Assembly (NCBI RefSeq): GCF_003034845.1
Contig: NZ_PZKC01000001.1
Span: 62,001-126,000, forward strand
Reading direction: 5' to 3'
Length of the DNA stretch: 64,000 bases
DNA from: Pseudothauera lacus
Lineage (GTDB): Bacteria; Pseudomonadota; Gammaproteobacteria; Burkholderiales; Rhodocyclaceae
Within the stretch, counting starts at the first letter, position 1. Every line of letters starts with the position of its first letter. The notes below the pieces were generated by a model. The model worked only from the letters and a program-made list of their open reading frames with translations, searched no databases and was not told where the DNA came from. Both the position numbers and the translations under genes were made by a program. Below are positions 33,795 to 58,295 of this stretch, in pieces.

Positions 33795-36005
33795 TCACTT
33801 GCTGTCGAAGGTAAACACGCCGTCCCAGTCTGCAGCTGGCGGGTTTTCCCTGAAGTGCGCGATGCGCGCGCGATACAGGGTGACCAGGGCGCTGCGCTCG
33901 CCGGCGGCCTCGAGCCTGTCCAGCAGGTCGAGGGCGGTATCCCAGTGGGTGTGGCGGTAGGCATCCAGCATCGCCGCGAAGAGGTCGTGGGCCTCTTCCG
34001 GGTTGCCGGTGGAGGTCGCGTCGGCCACTGCCTCGTGGATGGTCACGGCCACATCCTTGCCCTTGACCCGGATGCGGTCGAGTTCCTGCCAGCAGATGCC
34101 GGCGCCGGCGCTTTCCCTGGTGCGTTCGCTGGCAAGGACGAGGGCGCCGTACTGCTTGGTCAGGGATTCCAGCCGCGAACCCAGATTCACCGCGTCACCC
34201 ATTACCGTATAGGCCCGCCTGAACACCGACCCCATGTTGCCGACTGTCATCATGCCGGTGCTCAGACCGATGCCGATATGCAGCTGCGGCCAGCCGTGGA
34301 GAGCAAATTCGTGGCGCAGGCGTTCGGCCCGGCGCTGCATGTCGAGCGCGGCGAGCACGGCATTGCGCGCATGGTCGGGGCTGGGAATCGGTGCTCCCCA
34401 GAAGGCCATGATGGCATCACCGATGTACTTGTCCACGGTGCCGCCATGCATCTGTATGGATTCCGTCATCTCCGAAAGGTAGCGGTTGATGAGGCGGGTG
34501 AGTTCCTGGGGCGGCATGCCTTCCGAGATCGAGGTGAAGCCTCTGATGTCGGAGAACAGCACGCTCATTTCGCGACTGTCGCCCTCCATGCTGGCGAGCG
34601 CGGGGTTGGCGGCCAGTTCCTCGACGACGGCAGGTGGTACGTACTGGCCGAACAGGCCGGCGATCTGCTTTTTCGCGCGCGCCTCGACGAACAGGCTGAT
34701 GACCGTATGCACGGCATAGAGTGCGAGACTCATGCACAGCAGCGTGGCGACCGGCAGTACGAGGTGCCAGGTGAGCCAGGCCTGCAGTGTTCCCCACCAG
34801 GTCAGTACGGTGACCAGGGCGATGGCGGCGAGTGAGGGCGCGGGGCCCGCACGGAACAGGAAGCTGCTCAGCAGTGCCCACAGCGCGGCGACGCAGACGG
34901 CCTCGTAGCCCAGCGTCCATGCGGGGCGGTGGCGGATGCTGCCATCGATGATGCCGGCGATCATGTTGGCGTGGATCTCCACCCCGGGGAAGGCATTGCC
35001 CACCGGGGTGGAACGCAGGTCCATCAGCCCCGGGGCGGAGGTGCCGACCAGCGCGATGCGTCCGTCGAGCTCGCCTTCAGGCAGGCGGCCCTCGAGCACG
35101 TCGGTGGCGGAAAGGTAGATGAAGCTGCCTTGCCGCCCTCGATACGGAATCAACGCGGCAGCCTGCAGATCAACGGGAATGACGCGTTCACCGAGTTGCA
35201 GCCACTCGAGGGCGCCGTAGGCTTGCGAGGCCTGCGGAAAACCGAGCTGGGGCAGCGGGGCGTTGAGGAAGTGCCTGGCCACGGCGAGCGCAAGGGCTTC
35301 ATAGTACTCGCCGTCGTATTCGATCAGCAGCGGCACCCTGCGGGTCTGGCCGTCGGCGTCGAAGATGGGGGTGAAATGGCCTGCGCCACGCGAGGCAACC
35401 TGCAGTGATTCGATGTTCGCACCGAAGCCTGTGGCGCGCATGAGGCGGTCGTCGTGGCCGGCGAAGTCGCTGGCGAAGAACAGCGGGGCGGGGAGGAGGC
35501 CACTGCTGGTTGGCGTTGCCGACGTGGTGAAGTAGTAGCCGAGGATGACCGGACTGCGGGCGAGCGCGGCGGCGAAGCGCTGATCGAAGTCGAGCGTCGG
35601 GGAGAGGAGGTCGAGCTGCCGGGAGAATGCGTCGATATCGGCCAGGGGACCGGCGGCGAGCTCGCGCAGGACCTGCAGACCCGAGCTGGTGTCAGGCTCG
35701 GAGAAAACGACGTCGAAGCCGATCACGGCGACACCCTGGCGCAGGCTCAGTTCGTCGACCAGGCGCGCCAGGCGGTCACGCGGCCACGGCCAGCGGCCCT
35801 GCTCGGCGAGGCTGCGTTCGTCGATGTCGATGATGACGATGCGTGGGTCCTGTCCTGTGGCAGCACCGAGCTTGAGCCGCAGGTCGTAGCTGAGGGTTTC
35901 GATGCGCTCGACGAAACCCAGCCTCAGCACACCGAGTACGTGAGCCATGCTCAGAGCGCCGACGAGGAGGAAGGCGCACAGTCGGATCAGCCGCGAGGAG
36001 GTCAT
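33795..36005 (-). CDS. CHASE2-domain class III adenylate/guanylate cyclase
   Basis: About 736 residues from ATG 36005 (a GTG at 36026 is an alternative). One membrane segment (about 8-28) leads to a periplasmic CHASE2 sensor (about 35-355). Three membrane segments follow (about 365-435), then the cytoplasmic cyclase domain (about 475-660). The metal-binding Asp486 is in FSDIRGFTSIS and Asp530 in VDKYIGDAIMAFWGAP; the transition-state Asn/Arg pair is in MGDAVNLGSRLES. All catalytic positions are present, so an active cyclase is expected. A short helical tail follows. Nucleotide preference is inferred as ATP but unproven. Divergent from the FecR-domain gene. Confidence 0.93.
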   Translation of the reverse strand: MTSSRLIRLCAFLLVGALSMAHVLGVLRLGFVERIETLSYDLRLKLGAATGQDPRIVIIDIDERSLAEQGRWPWPRDRLARLVDELSLRQGVAVIGFDVVFSEPDTSSGLQVLRELAAGPLADIDAFSRQLDLLSPTLDFDQRFAAALARSPVILGYYFTTSATPTSSGLLPAPLFFASDFAGHDDRLMRATGFGANIESLQVASRGAGHFTPIFDADGQTRRVPLLIEYDGEYYEALALAVARHFLNAPLPQLGFPQASQAYGALEWLQLGERVIPVDLQAAALIPYRGRQGSFIYLSATDVLEGRLPEGELDGRIALVGTSAPGLMDLRSTPVGNAFPGVEIHANMIAGIIDGSIRHRPAWTLGYEAVCVAALWALLSSFLFRAGPAPSLAAIALVTVLTWWGTLQAWLTWHLVLPVATLLCMSLALYAVHTVISLFVEARAKKQIAGLFGQYVPPAVVEELAANPALASMEGDSREMSVLFSDIRGFTSISEGMPPQELTRLINRYLSEMTESIQMHGGTVDKYIGDAIMAFWGAPIPSPDHARNAVLAALDMQRRAERLRHEFALHGWPQLHIGIGLSTGMMTVGNMGSVFRRAYTVMGDAVNLGSRLESLTKQYGALVLASERTRESAGAGICWQELDRIRVKGKDVAVTIHEAVADATSTGNPEEAHDLFAAMLDAYRHTHWDTALDLLDRLEAAGERSALVTLYRARIAHFRENPPAADWDGVFTFDSK

Positions 36006-36110
36006 TGAGTGAAGGAGGCGCCGCACTGGCGAAGCGCCGCACCTCTAAGGAGCCCCGCCACCGCGCTTTTTGGCATACTGTCGCAATCACCGGATTCTAA
36101 CCCTTGCGCA

Positions 36111-37223
36111 ATGACTGCCAAACATAACGCTGCGACGCTGATCGTCGCCCTTGCGCTGCTGCTCTGTGCGCTTGCCCTGCTCCCGGGGCGTGCGCAGGCG
36201 CAGGCGCAGGCGCAGAACGCCATCACCGTGGTGGCCAGTGATGGCGTGCTCAACGTGCGCAAGGCCAGTGGCGCGCGGCTGCGGGTGGAGGCAGGGGGGC
36301 GGCTGGAACAGGGCGATATCGTCGAGGTGGAGGCGGCGGGGTCGGCTACACTGCAGTTCGCCGACGGGGCACAGGTGAGCCTGCGCGGCGGAACGCGGCT
36401 GCGCATCGACCTGCATCGCTACGATCCCGACAAACCGGCTCAGGACCGGCTGCATGCATCCCTGCTCGCCGGGGGGCTCAGGGTGGTTACCGGCGCAATC
36501 GGCAAGCGCGGTGACAGCGATGCCTTCCGGCTGGAGGCGCCGGCCGGCACCATCGGCATTCGCGGTACGCGTTTTACCGCCATCCTGTGCGGTATCGACG
36601 ACTGCCTGCGGCGCGGCGCGGAGGGCTTGCCGGGAAGCATCGTGCTGCGTGAGAACGCTGTCTTCGTCGAGGTCGACGAGGGGGCGGTGAGCTTCGCCAA
36701 CGAAGGCGGCGTCATCGAGTTGAGCGCCGGGCAGTGGGGGTATGCGAGCGATCGTGGCGCCCTGATGCAGCGCTTCGTGGTGGGCGACGGCACGCGCTTC
36801 CCTTCCTGGCTATGGCCGCGTGAAGGATCCACGCAAGGCGCCTCGGATGTGACCCTGGAGCAGGTCCATGCCTTCTATCAGGAGTTCATCGATGCCTACG
36901 GACGTGGCGATCAGCGCGCCTTGCTGCAGTTTCTTGCGCCTGGCTGGCGAGGCAGCGACGGATCATCGGTGCGCGACGTGGAGAACTACCTGAGCAACTC
37001 CTTCAGGGTGTTCGATCGCATCCAGTACCGCATCACCGGCTTTTCGGTCGAGGCTGCGGATGGCGGACGCTTGCGGGTGAGCTACAGCGTGCGCATCGTC
37101 GGGGAGAACCAGCGCCAGCGCCTGCGACACGAGGAGAGCTCGGAAGTCGTCGAGGAGCTCGGGCTGGTTGACGGCAGCTTGCGTATCCTGCGCAGCCTGA
37201 GCGGCAGCCAGTGGCTGCGCTGA
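36111..37223 (+). CDS. FecR-domain exported protein with NTF2-like C-terminal domain
   Basis: 370 residues from ATG 36111. A signal peptide (about 1-32, LIVALALLLCALALLPGRAQ) is followed by a LysM/SH3-like stretch (VVASDGVLNVRKASGARLRV), then a FecR domain (about 70-200: SATLQFADGAQVSLRGGTRL, EAPAGTIGIRGTRFTAIL). The last 110 residues (VHAFYQEFIDAYGRGDQRAL, later YRITGFSVEAADG) look like an NTF2/SnoaL-type domain. No TonB receptor or ECF sigma partner is near, so it is not a classical FecR. FecR-domain proteins are often encoded beside CHASE2 cyclases, as here. Role inferred: periplasmic partner or ligand of the sensor. Confidence 0.82.
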   Translation: MTAKHNAATLIVALALLLCALALLPGRAQAQAQAQNAITVVASDGVLNVRKASGARLRVEAGGRLEQGDIVEVEAAGSATLQFADGAQVSLRGGTRLRIDLHRYDPDKPAQDRLHASLLAGGLRVVTGAIGKRGDSDAFRLEAPAGTIGIRGTRFTAILCGIDDCLRRGAEGLPGSIVLRENAVFVEVDEGAVSFANEGGVIELSAGQWGYASDRGALMQRFVVGDGTRFPSWLWPREGSTQGASDVTLEQVHAFYQEFIDAYGRGDQRALLQFLAPGWRGSDGSSVRDVENYLSNSFRVFDRIQYRITGFSVEAADGGRLRVSYSVRIVGENQRQRLRHEESSEVVEELGLVDGSLRILRSLSGSQWLR

Positions 37224-37224
37224 T

Positions 37225-38859
37225 TCAGGCCTGAGCGACGCACTCGGGCCGGCTGGCGGCGAGGATCGCTGCCTCATCCACGACGTCGATCTGGCCGGCG
37301 GCAAGGAAGCGTTCTGCGTAGCGATGGTAGGCCTTGCTGCGCAGGAAGACCTCGAAGATGTCGGGATCAACGTGGCCGCTGCCCGCCATGCGGGCAAGGA
37401 TGCCGAGGGCAGTCGACAGGGTCATTGGCTTCTTGTAGGGGCGGTCGCTGGCGGTCAGGGCTTCGAAGATGTCGGCGATGCACATGATGCGCGCCTGTAC
37501 GCTCATGTCCACGCGGGTCAGGCCGCGTGGATAGCCCCTGCCGTCCATGCGCTCATGGTGATTGCCGGCGTATTCCGGCACTCGCGCAAGGTGGCGTGGC
37601 CAGGGCAGCGCTTCGAGCATGCGCTGGGTGGATACCACGTGGTGGTTGATGATCTCGCGCTCCGCGGCCGTCAAGGTGCCGGCACGTATGCACAGATTGG
37701 CGACCTCGTCGCTGTCGAGGAGCGGGTGCGTGCTGCCATCGACGGCATGCCAGCGGTAACGCGTGGCAATCTCCCGCACGCGCTGCTGATCGGCTTCTTC
37801 CATCGCTTCCGAGCCGACATTGGCGCGGTGCAGGAAGGTGCGGTCTGCTGCCACGCGGGCGCGGAAGTCCGCCAGGGCCTGTTCTGCGGCCAGCGCATCT
37901 TCTCCGCCACGGCAGGCGCGCAGCATCTCCAGCTCGGCGTCCCGCAGGATGATCTCGAAGCGGCAGTCGACCAGGCGGATGCGATCGAAGATGGTTTCGA
38001 GCTTGGTGGCCTTGTCCACCACATGCACCGGCGTCGTGATCTTGCCGCAGTCATGCAGCAGGCCGGCGATCTCCAGTTCCTCGCGATCCTGCTCGCTCAT
38101 CGAGAACCCGGCCAGCGGCCCTGCATCGTTGTCGTGCAGGGCTTCGGCGATCAGCATGGTGAGCACCGGGACGCGCTGGCAGTGGCCACCGGTATGGGGG
38201 GACTTTTCGTCGATGGCCTGGTTGATGAGGCGGGTAAAGGCGACGAACAGCGTCCTCATCTGTTCGATCAGCATGCGGTTGGTGAGCGCCACGGCGGCCT
38301 GTGAGGCGAGTGAGGCAACCAGTCCTTCGTGTGCACCGCTGAAGCGGCAGATCTGCCCGCTGTCGGGATCGAGTGCGTTGATCATCTGCAGTACGCCGAT
38401 GATTTCGCCCTGATGGTCCTGCATCGGCACCGACAGGAAGGAGCGCGAGCTGTAGCCGTTGGCGGCATCGAAGCGCCGTGTGCCAGAGAAGTCGAAGCCT
38501 TCGGCGTGGCGGACGTCCTCGATGTTGATGGTATTGCCGGTGAGGGCGGTGTGGGCAACCACCAGACTGTGGTTTTCGCTGCCGTCCTCGTTGCGCAGCG
38601 GTATCTCCGGCCAGCTGGCCGGTTTGCCCGTCGTGCCGCCGTAGGCAATGCCGAGCGAGGCCGTGCGCAGGATGGCGAAGCGCAGACCGTCGCGGGCTTC
38701 GTTCATCAGGTAGAGGGTGCCGCCGTCGGCGTTGGTGATGGTCTGCGCGGCCTGCAGGATGTGTTCGAGCAGACGGTCGATCTTCTGTTCGCGCGACAGT
38801 TCGATGCCGATCTGGTTGAGATAGGCGAGTTGCTGGCTGAGGTCGCTGTGCTTGTCCAT
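37225..38859 (-). CDS. GAF-HD-GYP protein (putative c-di-GMP phosphodiesterase)
   Basis: 544 residues. A GAF domain spans about 10-195, with NGYSSRSFLSVPMQDHQGE and IIGVLQMINALD. The HD-GYP domain spans about 205-525: SPHTGGHCQRV, GLLHDCGKI (His269-Asp270) and NHHERMDGRGYPRGL (434-447, GYP present). Canonical HD-GYP proteins have about 60 residues between these last two motifs; here about 160 separate them, so an extra block of about 100 residues (roughly 290-390) is inserted. The stop lies 1 base from the convergent FecR-domain gene. It starts 9 bases after the GAF-ATPase gene ends, so it is almost certainly co-transcribed with it. Confidence 0.9.
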   Translation of the reverse strand: MDKHSDLSQQLAYLNQIGIELSREQKIDRLLEHILQAAQTITNADGGTLYLMNEARDGLRFAILRTASLGIAYGGTTGKPASWPEIPLRNEDGSENHSLVVAHTALTGNTINIEDVRHAEGFDFSGTRRFDAANGYSSRSFLSVPMQDHQGEIIGVLQMINALDPDSGQICRFSGAHEGLVASLASQAAVALTNRMLIEQMRTLFVAFTRLINQAIDEKSPHTGGHCQRVPVLTMLIAEALHDNDAGPLAGFSMSEQDREELEIAGLLHDCGKITTPVHVVDKATKLETIFDRIRLVDCRFEIILRDAELEMLRACRGGEDALAAEQALADFRARVAADRTFLHRANVGSEAMEEADQQRVREIATRYRWHAVDGSTHPLLDSDEVANLCIRAGTLTAAEREIINHHVVSTQRMLEALPWPRHLARVPEYAGNHHERMDGRGYPRGLTRVDMSVQARIMCIADIFEALTASDRPYKKPMTLSTALGILARMAGSGHVDPDIFEVFLRSKAYHRYAERFLAAGQIDVVDEAAILAASRPECVAQA

Positions 38860-38868
38860 GATCCCTTC

Positions 38869-41223
38869 CTACTTGATGCAGACCTGACGCACCTGGCGCA
38901 TGTCGGTCAGCCCCGCCAGCACCTTCTCGATGCCGTCCATCTTCAGCGTGCGCATGCCGTCGTCGAGCGCACTTGCGAGCAGTTCGTCCACCGGGGCGCG
39001 ACGCAGGATGCGCTGCTTGCAGGCGTCGCTGCCGATCATCAGCTCGTGCAGGCCGATGCGCCCGGCGTAGCCGCAACCGCCGCAGGCAGGGCAGCCGCGC
39101 GCGCGGTACAGGGTGATGCGCTCCGCCGCGCCGCCCTGGCCGTCCAGCAGTCGTGCCCGCAGGGCCGCCATCGCGGCCTGCGGATCATTCCGCCAGGCCA
39201 CAGTGTTATGCAGTTCACTGGCGTACTCGGCACACAGTTCGTCGATCTCGGTCTCGTCGGCGAGGTAGGGTTCGCGACAGGATGGGCACAGGCGGCGTGC
39301 CAGGCGCTGGGCAAGCACGCCGAGCAGGGCGTCGGAGAAGTTGAACGGGTCCATCCCCATGTCGAGCAGGCGGATGACCGATTCCGGGGCACTGTTGGTG
39401 TGCAGGGTTGACAGCACCAGATGGCCGGTCAAGGAAGCCTCGATGCCGATGCTGACCGTCTCATGGTCGCGCATCTCGCCGACCATGATGACATCCGGGT
39501 CGGCGCGCAGGAAGGCCCGCATCACGGTGGCGAAGTCCATCCCGGCCTTGCGGTTGATCTGTACCTGACGCAGCCCGCGCTGGGTGATTTCGACGGGGTC
39601 TTCCGCGGTCCAGATCTTGCGTTCGGGGGTGTTGAGGTGGCCGAGGATGGAGTGCAGCGTGGTGGTCTTGCCCGAGCCGGTCGGGCCGCAGACGAAGAAG
39701 ATGCCATAGGGCTTGTCTATGACTGCGCGCAGACGGCTGGCGTTGTGGGTGCTGAGGCCCAGCCTGTCGAGGGCAATCGGTTCGCCGGATGCCAGCACGC
39801 GCATGACGACGTCTTCGAGGCCGTTCGCCGAAGGCAGGGTGGCGACTCGCAGCTCGATGTCCAGCGGACCGAACTTGCGAAAGCGGATCTTGCCATCCTG
39901 CGGTTTGCGACGCTCGGAGATGTCGAGGTCGCACATGATCTTGATGCGGGTGACAAGCGCGTTGCGATAGCTGGCGGGCACTTCAATGTAGTTGCGCAAT
40001 TCGCCATCCTTGCGAAAGCGCACCACCGTCTTCTGCCTGCCGGGGTAGGGCTCGATGTGGATGTCTGATGCCTTCTGCTCGAAGGCATCGATGATGATCT
40101 TGTTGACCAGTCGCACGAGTTCATTGTCGGCGGCAGCGCTGACCGCGTCTCCAGCCTCGCTGTCCTGCTCCTCGTCATCCATCGAGGAGAGCAATTCACT
40201 GACCTTGTCGGCGTCATCCACGCAGTAGAACTGGTCGACCGTGCGGCGGAATTCCTCACCCGTGGTGACCCGGAAAGCGACGCGATCGGCAGCGAGAACG
40301 TTCTGCACGCTGCGGCTGGTGCGCACGCGCTCGGCGTCGGTGCTGATCACCACGACGCCGTCCTCGCTCTCTTCCACGGGCAGCCACTGGTTGGCTTCGA
40401 CGAACTCCCGTTTCAGGCTGCGCAGCAGATGCACCGGCCGGATGCGGTCGCCACGGAAGGGCTCGTAAGGCAGGTCGAAGAAGGCTGCCAGGGCACGGCC
40501 CAATGCCGCCAGTGGAACCTGGAACTCGCCGTGCAGGACGTCCTCGATATCCTTGCCCTTGCGCCGCGCGCTGCGGCGCGCCAGGTCGAGCTCGCCAGCC
40601 GAGAGCACGCCCTCGGCAACAAGCCCGTCATACTTGCTGCGAAAGAGGCCAGCCCCCGGCGGACGCAGTGCCAGGGCCACGCCCAGGCTGCGGGCGAGTA
40701 TTTCCGCCCCCTCGGTGACGATGTCGCTGAACGGACCACCGTCGAGCGTGTTGATCAACTGCAGCACACCCTGCAGATCGTTGTGCGAGTCGGTACACGC
40801 GACGGCGAGGACCTCCCTGCTGCGGTAGCCGGTGCGTTCGTCGACCTGGCTGAGAAAGCGCAACTCCGGATAGATGCGGCGCAACTCGTCGTCGTCGTGG
40901 GCGTCATGGATGTTTACCGTGCGCCGGGTCATTGCACAGTAGCCGGCTATGCTGCGCGGACCGACCGGAAGCCGCAGGTCCTTGAACCCACCCAGTCCGG
41001 TCTTGACGCGGGAGATGATGTTGCTGCGGTCTTCGGTGAGCGCGTAAAGCGTGAGGCGGTCGGCGCGGAACAGCGCGCAGATCTCGCCGGAAAGCTCGAG
41101 CATCAGCTCGTAGGCATCGCGGGTGCCGTGAATCCTGTTGCTCACCGCCTGCAGGCGATGCATGAAGGCGAGCCGGGGATCATCACTGTTTCCCTGGGCT
41201 GGCGGTGGCGGCGTGGCGGTCAT
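38869..41223 (-). CDS. GAF-fused GspE/PilB-type secretion ATPase
   Basis: 784 residues from ATG 41223, with AGGAG eight bases before it. Order: GAF domain (about 20-185, with TGYRSREVLAVACTDSHNDL and GVLQLIN), a degenerate MshEN/T2SSE-N domain (about 196-330, with LVAEGVLSAGELDLA and FFDLPYEPF), then the hexameric ATPase. Walker A is GPTGSGKT (513-520), the Asp box is SERRKPQDGKI, Walker B is DPDVIMVGEMRD (from 575), and the His box is LSTLHTNSAP. The zinc cysteines are CPSC (646-649) and CPAC (711-714). All catalytic motifs are intact, so it should be an active motor. No pilin, platform protein or secretin gene is in the window. Confidence 0.92.
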   Translation of the reverse strand: MTATPPPPAQGNSDDPRLAFMHRLQAVSNRIHGTRDAYELMLELSGEICALFRADRLTLYALTEDRSNIISRVKTGLGGFKDLRLPVGPRSIAGYCAMTRRTVNIHDAHDDDELRRIYPELRFLSQVDERTGYRSREVLAVACTDSHNDLQGVLQLINTLDGGPFSDIVTEGAEILARSLGVALALRPPGAGLFRSKYDGLVAEGVLSAGELDLARRSARRKGKDIEDVLHGEFQVPLAALGRALAAFFDLPYEPFRGDRIRPVHLLRSLKREFVEANQWLPVEESEDGVVVISTDAERVRTSRSVQNVLAADRVAFRVTTGEEFRRTVDQFYCVDDADKVSELLSSMDDEEQDSEAGDAVSAAADNELVRLVNKIIIDAFEQKASDIHIEPYPGRQKTVVRFRKDGELRNYIEVPASYRNALVTRIKIMCDLDISERRKPQDGKIRFRKFGPLDIELRVATLPSANGLEDVVMRVLASGEPIALDRLGLSTHNASRLRAVIDKPYGIFFVCGPTGSGKTTTLHSILGHLNTPERKIWTAEDPVEITQRGLRQVQINRKAGMDFATVMRAFLRADPDVIMVGEMRDHETVSIGIEASLTGHLVLSTLHTNSAPESVIRLLDMGMDPFNFSDALLGVLAQRLARRLCPSCREPYLADETEIDELCAEYASELHNTVAWRNDPQAAMAALRARLLDGQGGAAERITLYRARGCPACGGCGYAGRIGLHELMIGSDACKQRILRRAPVDELLASALDDGMRTLKMDGIEKVLAGLTDMRQVRQVCIK

Positions 41224-41271
41224 GCGGCGCTCCTGCGCCACATGTCGAGGGCGTGGCGCGGAGCTATTCTA

Positions 41272-43690
<2,419 letters not shown>

Positions 43691-49971: not shown

Positions 49972-50742
49972 ATGTACGTTGACTCCCACTGCCACCTCGA
50001 TTTTCCAGACCTGCGCGCGCGTGAGGACGAGATCCTTGCCGCGATGCACGCCAACGGGGTGAGCCACGCGCTCTGCGTGGGCGTCAAGCTCGAGGACTTT
50101 CCTGCCGTGCTGGGGCTCGCCGAGCGTCATCCGGGTCTCTACGCCTCGGTGGGCGTGCATCCCGACAACGCCGGCTGCGAGGAGCCCGATGTCGCCCGCC
50201 TGGTGGCGCTCGCCGCACACCCGCGGGTGGTGGCGATCGGCGAGACCGGTCTCGACTACCACTGGCACAAGGATGCCCCGGAGTGGCAGCGCGAGCGTTT
50301 CCGCACCCACATCCGAGCCGCCCGTGCCGCCGGCAAGCCGCTGATCATCCACACCCGCGAGGCCGCCGCAGATACCCTGCGCATCATGCGCGAGGAGGGC
50401 GCCGATGCCGTCGGTGGCGTCATGCACTGCTTCACCGAATCGCAGGCCGTCGCCGACGCCGCACTGGAGCTTGGCTTCCATATCTCGTTTTCCGGCATCG
50501 TCACCTTCAAGAGTGCGCGCGAACTCAAGGAAGTCGCCCGTCGCGTGCCGCTTGACCGCCTCCTGATCGAGACCGATGCGCCGTATCTGGCCCCCGTTCC
50601 GCACCGCGGCAAGACCAACGAACCGGCCTACGTCGTCCACGTCGCCGAGGAGATCGCCCGCCTGCGCGAACTCCCGCTGGCGCAGATCGCCGCAGCCACC
50701 ACCGCCAACTTCTTCGGACTCTTCCGCCATGCCCTGCGCTGA
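49972..50742 (+). CDS. tatD: TatD-family deoxyribonuclease
   Basis: 256 residues, metal-dependent hydrolase. YVDSHCHLDFPDL carries the first metal ligands; VAIGETGLDYHW, IIHTREAAADTLRIM, MHCFTESQAVADAAL and LIETDAPYLAPVPHRGK complete the site. It follows pilZ with 75 bases between, as in many proteobacteria. Role: 3'-5' nuclease in DNA quality control, from family knowledge. Confidence 0.96.
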   Translation: MYVDSHCHLDFPDLRAREDEILAAMHANGVSHALCVGVKLEDFPAVLGLAERHPGLYASVGVHPDNAGCEEPDVARLVALAAHPRVVAIGETGLDYHWHKDAPEWQRERFRTHIRAARAAGKPLIIHTREAAADTLRIMREEGADAVGGVMHCFTESQAVADAALELGFHISFSGIVTFKSARELKEVARRVPLDRLLIETDAPYLAPVPHRGKTNEPAYVVHVAEEIARLRELPLAQIAAATTANFFGLFRHALR

Positions 50743-51415
50743 CCGCCTGTCCCGTGCCGCCGCCATCCTCGCCCTGTGCGCCGCCGCCTTCGTTGCGGTG
50801 CCGGCGCAGGCGCAAGGCACCTACGAAGCCGCGCTCAGCTCGGCGCGTCTGGGCGATACCCGCCAGCTCGTCGGCCTGCTCAATCGCGGCCTCGACGCCG
50901 ATACCGTCGATCTGCAGGGCAATACCCTGCTCATCCTCGCCGCCCGCGAGGGCATGCTGAGCACCGTGCAGGCCATCCTGCAATACCGCCCGCGCGTCTC
51001 GCAGCGCAACCTGGCCGGTGACTCGGCACTGATGCTGGCCACCCTCGGTGGCCATGAAGCGGTTGCCGACGCCCTCCTCGAAGCCGGCGCCGAACTCAAC
51101 CATGAGGGTTGGAACCCCTTGCTCTACGCCGCCTTCGAAGGGCGCCTGGGGCTGCTGCAGAAATTTCTCCAGCGTGGCGCCGATATCGATGCGCTGGCAC
51201 CCAACCGCTCCACCGCACTGATGCTCGCCGCCCGCAACGGCCACATCGAGGTCGTCCGCACCCTGCTCGCCGCAGGCGCGGATACCGCCCTGGTCAATGA
51301 TCGCGGCATCGACGCGGCAACCTGGGCGCGCCAGGTCGGCAATACCGTGATCGCCGATCTGATCGACGCCGAGCAGGCCCGGCGAGCCGGAACAGTGCGT
51401 CTGGAAATTCGCTGA
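50729..51415 (+). CDS. exported ankyrin-repeat protein
   Basis: 228 residues from ATG 50729, overlapping tatD by 14 bases. A signal peptide spans about 1-29 (ALCAAAFVAVPAQAQ). Five ankyrin-like repeats follow (LLNRGLDADTVDLQGNTLL, GDSALMLATLGGHEAVADAL, GWNPLLYAAFEGRLGLLQKF, STALMLAARNGHIEVVRTLL and a last partial one). Ankyrin proteins in the periplasm often bind partners such as catalases or proteases; the partner here is unknown. Confidence 0.9.
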   Translation: MPCADRLSRAAAILALCAAAFVAVPAQAQGTYEAALSSARLGDTRQLVGLLNRGLDADTVDLQGNTLLILAAREGMLSTVQAILQYRPRVSQRNLAGDSALMLATLGGHEAVADALLEAGAELNHEGWNPLLYAAFEGRLGLLQKFLQRGADIDALAPNRSTALMLAARNGHIEVVRTLLAAGADTALVNDRGIDAATWARQVGNTVIADLIDAEQARRAGTVRLEIR

Positions 51416-51511: not shown

Positions 51512-51820
51512 ATGCTCAGGAGCGCGTTGTTGACCCTGGCCGCAGTTGCGGCCTGGATGCCGGGCAGCGCCGCGCTGGCCAGCGAAGATCATCAGGCGGT
51601 GCAATGGGCTGCGGCCTGCTTTGCCTGCCATGGCCCCGAGGGGCGTTCGGACGGCGGCATGCCCTCGCTGGCAGGGCAGACCGCCGACGGCATGTACGCC
51701 ATGCTGATCGACTTCCGCAATGGCAAGCGCAATCCCACGGTGATGCATCACCACGCCAAAGGGTATACCGAAGAACAGTTGCGCCGCATCGCCGACATCC
51801 TCGGCCGGCGTCCGAACTGA
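51512..51820 (+). CDS. monoheme class I cytochrome c, flavocytochrome c partner
   Basis: 102 residues with a signal peptide (about 1-23, ending AALAS). One haem site, CFACHG (about 36-41). MPSLAGQTADGMYAMLIDFR and GKRNPTVMHHHAKGYTEEQL supply the usual distal region with methionine ligand candidates. It stands 14 bases before the flavoprotein gene, so it is the cytochrome subunit of a flavocytochrome c sulfide dehydrogenase. The classical FccA is diheme and twice as long; monoheme forms are also known. Confidence 0.88.
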   Translation: MLRSALLTLAAVAAWMPGSAALASEDHQAVQWAAACFACHGPEGRSDGGMPSLAGQTADGMYAMLIDFRNGKRNPTVMHHHAKGYTEEQLRRIADILGRRPN

Positions 51821-51834
51821 AGCGGAGGCCAGCC

Positions 51835-53109
51835 ATGCAACGTCGACAGTTTCTCCGTCACTCCGCCGCCCTTGCCGCGCTTGCTGCAGTGCCCGCTGCG
51901 GCGCGCGCCCAGGTCGGCCGCGGTGCCCGCGTGGTGGTGGTCGGTGGCGGCTTTGCCGGCGCCGCGTGCGCACGCTATCTGCGCCTGTGGGCGCCGGGGG
52001 CGAGCGTCACCCTGGTGGAGGCGGCGCGCGAGTTCGTCTCCTGCCCGATGAGCAATCGCGTCATCGGCGGCACGATGAGCATCCGTGACCTTACCCGGCG
52101 CTACGACGGCCTCGCCAGCCGTCACGGGGTGCGCGTGATCAACGACACCGTCACCGCCATCGACCCGGCTACCCGCCAGATCACCCTGGCCGGCGGCAGT
52201 GCGCTGCCGTACGATCGCCTGGTCATCGCGCCCGGCATCGCCTTCGACTATGCGGCCCTGCCCGGGTTGAACAGCGCCGCAGCGCAGGAGCGCGTTCCCC
52301 ATGCCTGGAAGGCCGGCCCGCAGACCCACGAACTGCGTCGGCGCATCGGCGCCATGCCGCAGGGCGGCGTGTTCGCCATGCACATCCCCAAGGCGCCCTT
52401 GCGCTGCCCGCCGGGGCCTTACGAGCGCGCCTGCCTGGTCGCCAGTGCGCTGCGGCGCAGCAACCCCACCGCCAAGGTGCTGGTGTTCGATGCCAATCCG
52501 GGTATCCTCGCCAAGCGCGAACTGTTCGCCGACGCCTTTGCCAACCGCTACAAGGGCATGATCGAGTACGTCCCCAATGCCGGCTTCGAAGCCATCGACG
52601 CTGCCAGCGGAGAGCTGAGCTTCGACGTGCACGGCAAGGTACGCGCCGACGTCTGGAACGTCATCCCCCCGCAGCGTGCCGGCGAACTCGCCCTGCAGGC
52701 CGGTCTCGGCGGTGGTCAGGGATGGTGCGAGGTCGATTTCCTCTCCTACGAGTCGCGCCTCGTGCCCGCCGTGCATGTGATCGGCGATGCCATTGCCTCC
52801 GCCCCCGGCACGCCCAAGTCGGCGCACATGGCCAACCAGCAGGCCAAGGTCTGCGCGGCGGCCATTGCGGCGCATTTTGCCGGGCGGGCGGTGAACCCTG
52901 AACCGATCATCGCCAATACCTGCTACAGCTTCGTCAGCGACAAGGAAGCCATCCACATCGCCGGCGTCTATCGCTATGACGACGGCCAGCGCACCATTGT
53001 CGCGGTGCCCGGCGCCGGCGGGCTCTCAGCGCGCGCCAGCGGCGAGGAGGCCTTCATGGCGGTGGCGTGGAGCTTCAACATCCTCAACGACACGCTGGGG
53101 ATGATCTGA
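51835..53109 (+). CDS. fccB: flavocytochrome c sulfide dehydrogenase, flavoprotein subunit
   Basis: 424 residues from ATG 51835, with GCGGAGG upstream. A Tat signal peptide opens the protein: MQRRQFLRHSA then a hydrophobic stretch to AARAQ. The FAD-binding opening is VVVVGGGFAGAACARYL. EFVSCPMSNRVIGG carries the Cys expected to bind FAD covalently; LRCPPGPYERAC and IIANTCYSFVS carry the redox cysteine pair expected at the sulfide-oxidising site. The C-terminal flavocytochrome domain is complete (KEAIHIAGVY to MAVAWSFNILNDTLGMI). Oxidises sulfide to sulfur or polysulfide in the periplasm. Confidence 0.93.
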   Translation: MQRRQFLRHSAALAALAAVPAAARAQVGRGARVVVVGGGFAGAACARYLRLWAPGASVTLVEAAREFVSCPMSNRVIGGTMSIRDLTRRYDGLASRHGVRVINDTVTAIDPATRQITLAGGSALPYDRLVIAPGIAFDYAALPGLNSAAAQERVPHAWKAGPQTHELRRRIGAMPQGGVFAMHIPKAPLRCPPGPYERACLVASALRRSNPTAKVLVFDANPGILAKRELFADAFANRYKGMIEYVPNAGFEAIDAASGELSFDVHGKVRADVWNVIPPQRAGELALQAGLGGGQGWCEVDFLSYESRLVPAVHVIGDAIASAPGTPKSAHMANQQAKVCAAAIAAHFAGRAVNPEPIIANTCYSFVSDKEAIHIAGVYRYDDGQRTIVAVPGAGGLSARASGEEAFMAVAWSFNILNDTLGMI

Positions 53110-55778: not shown

Positions 55779-58295
55779 TCAGTCGCGGTGCTGCGCCAGC
55801 GAGGCGATGAATACTTCTGCCGGTGCCGGGCGCCCGTACAGATAGCCCTGGTAGAGCATCTCCGCACGCGCGGCGAGGAAGTCGGCATGGGCCTGCGTTT
55901 CCACCCCTTCGGCAACGACGCTGAGGCGCAGGTGCGCGGCCATTGCCAGAATGGTGTCCACCAGCGCAGCGTCGCTGGGATCCTCGGGAGCGTCCTGAAT
56001 GAAGCTGCGGTCGATCTTCAGCTCGTTGATGGGCAGGCGCTTCAGATAGGCCAGCGACGAGTAGCCGGTGCCGAAATCGTCGATGGAGAAGTGAATGCCC
56101 AGCGCACTCAGTTCGGACATCGTCGCGGCGGTCTGGTGCACCTTGTCGATCACCAGCCCTTCGGTAACCTCCAGGGTCAGGCGGCTGGGATCGGCACCGG
56201 TTTCGGTGAGGATGTCGCGCACTCTGCCGACGAAGCCGGCATGGTGGAACTGGCGCGGGCTGACGTTGATGGAGATGCGCAGTGAGTTTGCGGCGATCTC
56301 CGGATGGGTGAGCAGGGCACAGCCGCGGCGCAGCACCCAGTCGCCGAGTTCGACGATCAGGCCGGTTTCCTCGGCGATGGGAATGAAGCTTGCCGGTGGT
56401 ACCAGGCCGCGTCGCGGGTGGTGCCAGCGCAACAGCACCTCGGCCCCGCGGATGGCGCCGCGTGCATCGACCTGGGCCTGCAGGAAGAGGCGCAGTTCTT
56501 CCTGCTCGACGGCGCGCCGCAGCTCGCTTTCGAGCATGAAGCGCATTTCCGCGCGGGCCTGCATCTCCGGTTCGAAGAAGCGCACCACGTTGCGGCCTGC
56601 GGCCTTGGCCTGGTACATCGCCGTATCGGCCTGCTTGAGCAACTCGGAAACACTGCCGCCACCGCTGGGCGGGAAGATCGCCACGCCGATGCTGGCGCCG
56701 ATGGAGAGTGACTCGCCGGCGAGCACGAAGGGCTGGGCGAGCCCTTCACGCAGTTTCTCGGCAACGCTGCGCGCCATGTCGGCCGCGAGCTGTTCGAGTG
56801 GGGAGATTTCCGGCAGCAGGAGGACAAACTCGTCGCCACCGAAGCGCGACAGGGTGTCGCTCTCGCGCAGGTCGCGCTGCAGGCGTTCGGCGATGGCCTT
56901 CAGCAGGCGGTCGCCCATCTCGTGCCCGCGGGCGTCGTTGAGGGTCTTGAAGTAATCCAGATCGATCAGCAACAAGGCGCCGAAGTGGCCTGAGCGGCGC
57001 GCCACTGCCAGAGCGTGTTCGAGGCGGTCGAGGAGCAGGCGGCGGTTGGGCAGCCCGGTCAGCGAGTCGAAGTAGGCCAGGCGGGCGATCTCGGATTCTG
57101 CGTGGCGGCGGTCGGTGACGTCGCGGCCGATGCTTACCAGACCCTTGCGGCTGCCGTCGGGATTGAACAGGGGTACCTTGATGGTATCGACCACCATGGT
57201 CTGGCCGTTGACGGTAGGGATGTGCTCCTCGGTGCGCAGCGCGCCGCGCTGCGCCCACGCCGGTTCGTCGGGCTGCTCGTGGCCGAGCAGGGCACGTCGC
57301 GAGGCGCCCTGGCTGAAGGCCAGTTCGGCATCGCTGCAGCCGCGGAAATCCACCCCCTGCAGACCGAACAGCTCGACGGTGTAGCGGTTGGCCTGCTGCC
57401 AGCGTCCCTGGCCATCCTTGAAGCGGACAATGTCGGGGAGGGCGTCGAGCAGGGTGGCGAGCTCCTCTTCGCGATGGGCGAGGCGGTTGTTGGTACGCCG
57501 GCGGCTGAGAACGTTGGCGACCAGCAGCACGATGAGCAGCAATTGCACGAGGAGGGCAGCGATCATCAGAGTGCGCACGCGCTCTTCGGCTGCTCCGACC
57601 TCGCGGGTGCGCTGGTCCACGAGCTCCTCCAGCCTGTCCTTGTAGGCCAGCAACTCGGCTTCGCCGATGCTCTTGTCGGTGACGTCATGGATGATGGAGA
57701 ACAGCACCTGGCGGCCATCCTCCAGCCGCACCGGTGAGGAGTACACCTCTACGGTGCGGATCCCGCCCCCCGCGACACGGTGCGGGAAGATGAAGTAGTT
57801 GCGTTCCTCGCGCTGTGCGCGGGCGCGCTCGGCAGCGACCTCGTCGGCGCCCAGGGTATTGAACTCATCGATGCTGCGCCCGATCAGCTCACCACCGGGG
57901 AGGCCGTAGAAGCGCCCGGCAGCGGCGTTGGCGTCGATGATGCGGCCGCTGGCCGGATCGATGAACAGCATCACCGCGGTGTGCTGAAGGAACAGGCTGG
58001 AGAGCAGGTCCTTGCGCGCCAGCGCAGCGGAGGCGGTCAACACTGCGGTAAAGGTCAGCACGCCGGCGAGGACGAGCAGGCGGGCGCGGGCGGCGGGGGT
58101 GGGCAGACGCAGGGCGGACAGGAAGGCTGAGGCGCGCAGTTTGGGACTCGCTGAAGCATGCCGCAGACGGAACTGCCGCGGCGTTGTGTGGCTATTTCGA
58201 TAGTAATAGTACTGGAAGCTTTGCCGGCGTGCATGGGAACGTCTGCCCGGCCCGAGCACTGGTTCACGATAGCCTAACAAAGAGGCCTGGCGCAC
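55779..58295 (-). CDS. PAS-PAS-GGDEF-EAL protein (c-di-GMP turnover), EVL variant
   Basis: Up to 838 residues from a GTG at 58295; the true start is uncertain because residues 1-65 look non-family and no ATG lies closer to the first membrane segment (about 72-92). A PAS (about 98-208), coiled coil, second membrane segment (about 243-263) and second PAS (about 280-395) follow. GGDEF is intact (RFGGDEFVLLLP, 486-490). The phosphodiesterase signature reads GAEVLLRWHHP, so EVL replaces EAL (619-621). The other catalytic boxes (INVSPRQF, LEVTEG, DDFGTGYSSLAYLKRLPI, VVAEGVET) are intact, so activity is still likely. It starts 48 bases downstream of the deacetylase-like gene. Confidence 0.9.
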   Translation of the reverse strand: MRQASLLGYREPVLGPGRRSHARRQSFQYYYYRNSHTTPRQFRLRHASASPKLRASAFLSALRLPTPAARARLLVLAGVLTFTAVLTASAALARKDLLSSLFLQHTAVMLFIDPASGRIIDANAAAGRFYGLPGGELIGRSIDEFNTLGADEVAAERARAQREERNYFIFPHRVAGGGIRTVEVYSSPVRLEDGRQVLFSIIHDVTDKSIGEAELLAYKDRLEELVDQRTREVGAAEERVRTLMIAALLVQLLLIVLLVANVLSRRRTNNRLAHREEELATLLDALPDIVRFKDGQGRWQQANRYTVELFGLQGVDFRGCSDAELAFSQGASRRALLGHEQPDEPAWAQRGALRTEEHIPTVNGQTMVVDTIKVPLFNPDGSRKGLVSIGRDVTDRRHAESEIARLAYFDSLTGLPNRRLLLDRLEHALAVARRSGHFGALLLIDLDYFKTLNDARGHEMGDRLLKAIAERLQRDLRESDTLSRFGGDEFVLLLPEISPLEQLAADMARSVAEKLREGLAQPFVLAGESLSIGASIGVAIFPPSGGGSVSELLKQADTAMYQAKAAGRNVVRFFEPEMQARAEMRFMLESELRRAVEQEELRLFLQAQVDARGAIRGAEVLLRWHHPRRGLVPPASFIPIAEETGLIVELGDWVLRRGCALLTHPEIAANSLRISINVSPRQFHHAGFVGRVRDILTETGADPSRLTLEVTEGLVIDKVHQTAATMSELSALGIHFSIDDFGTGYSSLAYLKRLPINELKIDRSFIQDAPEDPSDAALVDTILAMAAHLRLSVVAEGVETQAHADFLAARAEMLYQGYLYGRPAPAEVFIASLAQHRD

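Follow-up and report, generated by a model that had tools for sequence, protein, structure and literature searches.

Why should a motor ATPase carry a sensory domain at its amino-terminus, and what might such a protein drive? The question is raised by a gene of Pseudothauera lacus (Rhodocyclaceae) located in a stretch of 64,000 nucleotides (assembly GCF_003034845.1, contig NZ_PZKC01000001.1, positions 62,001 to 126,000 of the forward strand), referred to here as the window and whose numbering is used for all window coordinates. The gene encodes a GAF-MshEN-T2SSE ATPase (38869..41241, minus strand). Its open reading frame (ORF) has 790 codons with a GTG start, and an ATG at 41223 would give 784 amino acids. 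An initial annotation had described it as an orphan secretion ATPase with a GAF domain in front of a degenerate MshEN-like stretch. We find that, alongside PilB and TfpB, it represents a third lineage among extension-type ATPases, one whose input is unusual. Its domains, folds, catalytic residues, loss of motifs for cyclic di-GMP (c-di-GMP), gene linkage and distribution complementary to that of PilB were all computed.

Domain organization

All three domains score above their curated Pfam cut-offs (in brackets): GAF with 31.9 bits (22.4), MshEN with 37.4 (23.1) and T2SSE with 387.8 (24.9). In the T2SSE ATPase domain (residues 371–784; 38890..40131, minus strand) the Walker A sequence GPTGSGKT, the Walker B with its Glu and the His-box residues, motif names which we take to apply to these residues, are intact and invariant in 50/50 aligned sequences of the GAF-ATPase family. 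The same is true of the four zinc cysteines (646, 649, 711 and 714 in the 784-residue numbering), recognized in the alignment as two CxxC pairs of a zinc ribbon with 61 residues between the pairs (39082..39288, minus strand). Domain score, Walker A and B, His box and zinc cysteines place the protein in the T2SSE/PilB-GspE superfamily, and it falls below the cut-offs of the equivalog models for PilB (TIGR02538, 450.9 bits, cut-off 675.65), GspE (TIGR02533, 465.9 bits, cut-off 630.25) and TfpB (NF053534, 413.1 bits, cut-off 850).

The GAF domain occupies residues 21–199 (40645..41181, minus strand) and was delimited by Pfam, profile search, AlphaFold and fold comparison. A profile of 80 N-terminal regions (the window protein and 79 orthologues), searched against solved structures, matched Anabaena CyaB2 best (1ykd, E 2e-34), followed by PmGH (4mcw, 3e-17), PDE10A (2zmf, 2.5e-16) and PDE5/6/2 (about 1e-15); PilB was matched at 1e-6, for its MshEN part. 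An AlphaFold model of residues 7–370, computed with the 79 orthologues, has a mean predicted local distance difference test score of 86.9 and a predicted template modelling score of 0.56, which makes the relative placement of GAF and MshEN uncertain. Compared using Foldseek and VIA-align, the modelled GAF is closest to 4mcw (Z 20.7), PDE5 (3lfv, 19.4) and PDE2 (19.4), with further matches to CyaB2 (1ykd, 16.2) and the cAMP-bound Lcd1 GAF (5w10, 16.0). By sequence and predicted fold, the domain is thus nearest to the cyclic-nucleotide (CyaB2/PDE) subfamily. The prediction gives a GAF fold followed by an MshEN fold, so that Pfam scores and folds agree with the domain order, as with the intact catalytic and zinc residues, of the initial annotation. 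Its idea of a small-molecule or redox input wired to a motor holds insofar as a sensor is fused to an intact extension-type ATPase; there is no evidence either way for the redox part.

The MshEN (GSPII/N1) domain follows at residues 197–342 (40216..40653, minus strand). Both its Pfam score and its predicted fold support this assignment: the model of residues 191–336 matches the solved N-domains of PilF (GSPIIB, 9gl5, Z 13.8; root mean square deviation 3.6 over 137 aligned residues) and MshE (5htl, Z 13.7). Statements from the literature, here and below, refer to the parts of the cited papers that were available. In MshEN domains which bind c-di-GMP, two 24-residue motifs starting RLGxxL lie 5 residues apart (PMC12943098). 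Only 10/22 of the motif positions are retained in the window protein and at most 11/22 in each of 109 family members (80 of class A, window protein included, 19 of class B and 10 of class C), versus 18–21/22 in seven control proteins of the MshE/GspE type and 21/22 in the MshE of the same genome. It is therefore very likely, as judged from these motifs, that the c-di-GMP input of the family has been lost, and the same applies to PilB here: eight canonical PilB of the same bacterial family score 7–8/22 and 30 TfpB score 6–11/22. For this reason we rejected the idea that motif loss is a peculiarity of the GAF proteins. The word "degenerate" in the initial annotation is thus apt for the c-di-GMP motifs, while the fold is predicted to be intact.

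A lineage distinct from PilB and TfpB

Of 150 genomes from the same bacterial family, 107 have a strong match to the GAF ATPase. These proteins form a clade of their own, with a support of 0.90 in the first tree (where three PilT/PilU-type outgroup tips, A_L006, A_L008 and A_L014, bear a misleading A_ prefix) and of 0.999 in a tree to which a second class, described below, was added. They group apart from the PilB clade and outside the TfpB clade, which is their sister (support 0.93). An identification of the window ATPase as TfpB was considered and rejected, since true TfpB loci form another clade.

Like PilB, the window ATPase combines an MshEN-type N-domain with a T2SSE motor, and canonical PilB of this family are also without c-di-GMP motifs; it differs in its additional GAF, its separate clade, its score under the TIGR02538 cut-off and the absence of adjoining pilC/pilD. 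The resemblance to TfpB of Acinetobacter baylyi is that of an additional extension-type ATPase encoded outside the pilC operon and usually found alongside PilB (PMC8213720). In contrast, TfpB is about 580–600 amino acids long and lacks a GAF.

Conserved gene linkage

The distribution and gene linkage of the GAF ATPase are strongly documented. Only 9 bp downstream of the window ATPase lies a gene for a GAF-HD-GYP c-di-GMP phosphodiesterase (37225..38859, minus strand), whose GAF likewise belongs to the cyclic-nucleotide type (PDE5 4e-26, CyaB2 8e-17). This partner is present in 65 of the 150 family genomes, 61 of which also hold the GAF ATPase, and in 58 of these 61 the two genes are within 2.5 kb of each other (on another contig in the remaining three). 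The term "orphan" is thus not appropriate. Among 80 named betaproteobacterial loci (the best 80 of 564), 66 have the HD-GYP gene immediately downstream, 5 have it upstream in divergent orientation and 9 lack it; these counts call for some discount because the tblastn score can gain from the GAF of HD-GYP and the sample therefore favours this linkage. The partner shares domain order and metal ligands with PmGH (4mcw; PMC4159591): seven of the eight PmGH ligands, the K225 equivalent and the GYP motif are kept in 35/35 sequences. The eighth ligand, E185, is different, being Y in 31 and H in 4 (H in the window protein), as in the Y/F subfamily of PMC4159591.

The same 80 loci include genes for a CHASE2 cyclase (65 loci), a metallo-beta-lactamase-fold (MBL) hydrolase (66), FHA (58) and PP2C (55) proteins, a CHASE2 Ser/Thr kinase (27) and a pilin (33). 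All 62 cyclases found by pattern have the adenylate-type K/T pair. In the window, their counterpart is a CHASE2 class III cyclase (33795..36026, minus strand) with the motifs FSDIRGFT, DKYIGD and YTVMGD; metal Asp and adenine-type K/T residues are present, which we take to be the rule for class III adenylate cyclases. ATPase, HD-GYP and cyclase genes lie on one strand in a relative (L049) and follow the same order in the window, where a FecR-domain gene (36009..37223, plus strand) separates the latter two on the opposite strand; with one weak counterpart in 100 loci, it probably does not belong to the unit. The MBL hydrolase exceeds the Pfam PDEase_II cut-off (23.7) in 3/3 cases tested (the gene of the window genome scores 46.4 bits), and its nearest solved relative is yeast PDE1 (E 4.7e-8). 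Those of two relatives score 44.2 and 35.5 bits against the NF041851 cut-off of 400, and are also under the cut-offs of RNase Z models.

Genes for pilus machinery are a different matter. Probes for PilC, PilD, MshG, MshL, MshM and PilM/N/O found nothing across the 64-kb window, the window ATPase was the sole match there to PilB/PilT/PilU probes and a pilin-motif scan of the window gave no ORF. The absence of partner genes within 20 kb, noted in the initial annotation, therefore applies to machinery, and indeed to the entire window, but not to signalling partners, since the HD-GYP and cyclase genes are close by. The names sucC, sucD, rpe, gph, trpE, MshL, MshM and MglA as used in this work are presumed from the look of the sequences and from gene order.

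Subgroups and a locus exchange

Twenty loci make up class B, with a more diverged N-terminus and an ATPase domain 70–73% identical. FHA and hydrolase genes are present in 20/20 and PP2C in 11/20 of them. None of the 20 includes an HD-GYP gene, a point against the gated motor proposed below. Across the 19 class-B relatives aligned, the D-x-x-T-G-Y block of the GAF is loosely kept, often with S-G-F replacing T-G-Y. Two congeneric genomes belong to class B and carry the class-B ATPase at a site equivalent to one (C37) where the window genome retains the PP2C-FHA-hydrolase block, with 96 bp between the hydrolase and the next gene and no ATPase trace; the ATPase of the window genome is the HD-GYP-linked one, encoded in the window. 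Read most simply, one version would have replaced the other, and class-B and HD-GYP-linked ATPases would therefore do the same job.

Across the phylum, 31 of 299 genomes match the N-terminal profile at 1e-50, and 28 of these have only the phylum in common with the window. Ten loci represent another class, and over the length of the window protein their ATPase is 39–42% identical to it. Six of these loci have an HD-GYP relative (49–52%) within about 5 kb and three a CHASE2 cyclase relative, the domains at these loci having been Pfam-checked for a subset.

The ligand of the GAF domain

Several features argue for a cyclic nucleotide. In the D-x-x-T-G-Y block, D134, T137 and G138 are kept in 80/80 GAFs; matches to cyclic-nucleotide-type GAFs are far ahead of those to other GAFs; and the gene resembling a class-II cyclic-nucleotide phosphodiesterase is linked in 66/80 loci and in all 20 of class B. 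Together with the adenylate-type cyclase, these point to cyclic AMP (cAMP) as the probable ligand.

Other observations weigh against this. The NKFDE motif, kept in most characterised cyclic-nucleotide-binding GAFs (PMC4411481), is retained in part: across the 80 GAFs, N and F are present in 80/80, the K position is N in 60/80, D is lost and E is found in 69/80, and the window GAF itself reads N-T-F-V-T at these positions. In the other class, the two full-length CHASE2 neighbours aligned have both lost cyclase catalytic residues and would therefore make no cAMP. Moreover, PtsP-type GAFs also reach Z 18–19 against the model, so that the ligand does not follow from the fold alone, and a bacterial GAF binding GDP is cited in PMC6416229. 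These points leave some room, though in our view not much, for a GAF which senses another nucleotide, heme or a metabolite, or which only dimerises, with the cyclase and hydrolase neighbours being general signalling genes; the invariant D-x-x-T-G-Y block, the profile matches and the hydrolase linkage argue against it. As a separate observation, CHASE2 relatives with degenerate catalytic residues in the other class (L289 10989-13220 and L290 5188-7416) could be pseudo-cyclases kept beside the GAF ATPase for another role.

ATPase complement and the motor role

The initial annotation had suggested a search for other PilB/GspE copies, and these are indeed present, with machinery of their own. The window genome has eight T2SSE matches over the cut-off. 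One region (C37) carries pilB-pilC-pilD (PilB at 827.7 bits, over its cut-off; T2SSF; prepilin peptidase) and an MSHA-like cluster, another (C12) holds a third cluster and three shorter T2SSE proteins look like PilT/PilU. Two ATPases have no platform gene nearby: that of the window, and a REC-MshEN-T2SSE protein 64 kb away on the same contig. The latter (748 amino acids; L012 9804-12050, G000 C1:26000-45000) is encoded among response regulators, histidine kinases, a hemerythrin-like kinase and an Arf-type small GTPase, which we take to be MglA-like.

PilB and TfpB were scored as present at E <= 1e-190, a threshold at which partial or divergent copies may be missed. Among the 150 family genomes, the GAF ATPase occurs with both PilB and TfpB in 47, with PilB in 21, with TfpB in 36 and by itself in 3; genomes without it have PilB and TfpB (23), PilB only (15), TfpB only (0) or none of the three (5). 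It is therefore found in 39 of the 44 genomes lacking canonical PilB, including all 36 of those with TfpB. TfpB as such is present in 106/150 genomes and absent from the window genome and from three sampled congeners. In 13 PilB-less genomes, the loci of 30 ATPase matches were retrieved and added to the tree, where none grouped with PilB.

In the genome G027 (99% complete, 4 contigs), both PilB and TfpB are absent at the thresholds used. Its PilC and PilD genes are side by side with no adjoining pilB, two of its ATPases are PilT/PilU and each of its four other long ATPases, two of which are on the tree, lies beside its own T2SSF gene. On these sequence data, the type IVa extension motor of G027 would most plausibly be the GAF ATPase. 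A second genome (G069) also has pilC-pilD without pilB, with TfpB present. The initial annotation had named sole-motor use by a complete pilus or secretion operon as a result that would refute it; the comparative data approach this in one genome, G027, which would still not make the finding an ordinary one but gives a hint of the protein's function.

A motor role has to be set against several facts. PilB loss requires 3 changes on a 50-tip gene tree versus 12.9 expected by shuffling; it is thus clustered and reflects a small number of independent events, so that a Fisher test (p 0.0026) overstates the 39/44 figure. PilB is kept alongside the GAF ATPase in the window genome and 67 other family genomes, while 38 family genomes have PilB without the GAF ATPase, which is therefore dispensable for having PilB-type pili. 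In addition, none of the loci read has a pilC adjoining the gene.

Alternatively, the protein could be a messenger-controlled signalling subunit which co-assembles with, or competes against, PilB or TfpB (through mixed hexamers or PilC occupancy) and so tunes pili built by ordinary motors. We regard this as rather improbable. One or other of the two motors is co-present in 104 of 107 genomes with the GAF ATPase, the gene sits in signalling clusters and not in machinery operons, the window genome has a complete PilB-PilC-PilD set and two-hybrid interactions between such ATPases are mentioned in PMC11656802. However, invariance of the catalytic and zinc residues in 50/50 sequences would be unusual for a pure regulator, and G027 has no PilB or TfpB to regulate.

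Pilin genes count in favour of the motor reading and also bear on a further alternative. A same-strand pilin-like ORF lies no more than 3.5 kb downstream of the ATPase in 34 of the 80 loci with room for one (class A 30/61, class B 4/19), a density of 0.153/kb versus 0.008/kb in other flanks (18.6x). Such pilins might form a separate minor pilus driven by the GAF ATPase on a borrowed type IVa platform. This appears very unlikely, given that 46/80 loci and the window itself have no such pilin nearby and that no dedicated PilC accompanies the gene in the loci read. The adjoining pilins had also been considered as the Azoarcus pilAB operon, an identification rejected since pilAB sits beside pilSR (PMC3262810).

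Two genomes (G019 and G080) encode an ATPase of another type, with about 255 extra N-terminal residues without Pfam match before MshEN-T2SSE (L276 5426-7813 and L275 13767-16172); that at L276 is about 4 kb from genes which look like pilMNOP.

A proposed cyclic-nucleotide-gated motor and its relation to known systems

The gene linkage and the fused sensor, both read from sequence, suggest that a small signal molecule may act directly on a pilus motor to switch it. In our estimation, there is an even chance that this distinct lineage of the PilB/TfpB/GspE group extends type IV pili in support of the usual motor, or in its stead in some relatives, and that a cyclic nucleotide (probably cAMP) gates it in place of c-di-GMP. 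While distribution and linkage are observed, the ligand and the motor role, including the action on type IV pili and the direction of the switch, are what we infer. In this scheme, the CHASE2 adenylate cyclase next door would make the signal and, in many relatives, the hydrolase resembling class-II cyclic-nucleotide phosphodiesterases would remove it. Binding at the GAF rings would be relayed through the MshEN helices to the ATPase hexamer, so that cAMP on the GAF would gate ATP hydrolysis and thereby start or stop the polymerisation of pilins. Sensing this signal as well, the co-encoded GAF-HD-GYP would bring down c-di-GMP while the motor is switched, and FHA, PP2C and the CHASE2 kinase may add phosphothreonine control. 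More tentatively, and with somewhat less than an even chance, these proteins would represent a widespread undescribed class of type IV pilus motor, in which cAMP gates via the GAF, a cAMP-reading HD-GYP removes c-di-GMP and PilB has been supplanted in some lineages.

In A. baylyi, PilB and TfpB both serve as extension motors (PMC8213720), which provides a precedent for additional motors, be it a second or a third. As in the c-di-GMP binders of the MshE/GspE type (PMC12943098), with which it shares the MshEN fold, the protein would read a second messenger at the motor N-terminus; the difference is that both RLG motifs are degenerate in 109/109 members and that the sensor would be the GAF in front. 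The closest GAFs by sequence and fold are those of the CyaB2 tandem, PDE2/5/10 and Lcd1, whose effectors are cyclases, phosphodiesterases or GGDEF domains and not a pilus-type ATPase; the cyclase activity of Lcd1 rises upon cAMP binding to its GAF (PMC6416229). For the HD-GYP partner, the proposed cAMP input to c-di-GMP breakdown is also that of Bd1971, a cAMP-sensing c-di-GMP phosphodiesterase (PMC6717892), which differs in having a CRP-type sensor, an EAL enzyme and no motor.

In a 2024 review of PilB control, cAMP acts via transcription (Vfr) and c-di-GMP via the motor N-domain (PMC11656802), and the word GAF is not present in the available part of its text. No report of a GAF-fused PilB, MshEN or PulE protein, or of this gene cluster, was found in the open-licence literature in the parts available, and an earlier description is possible. 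If correct, a motor with a built-in cyclic-nucleotide-type sensor would join cAMP and c-di-GMP post-translationally and would account for the many Rhodocyclaceae that do without canonical PilB; it also makes testable for what reason two or three extension-type ATPases occur in pilus systems.

Other features of the window

Directly upstream of the ATPase, 30 bp from its GTG, is a gene for a PAS-PAS histidine kinase (41272..43104, minus strand); it is without counterpart beside the orthologues and hence appears to be a local addition. A further c-di-GMP enzyme, a PAS-GGDEF-EAL protein, is encoded about 15 kb from the ATPase (55779-58295). A gene resembling that of the flavoprotein of flavocytochrome c sulfide dehydrogenase, with a TAT-signal match (51604-53109), adjoins an ankyrin-repeat gene (50576-51415).

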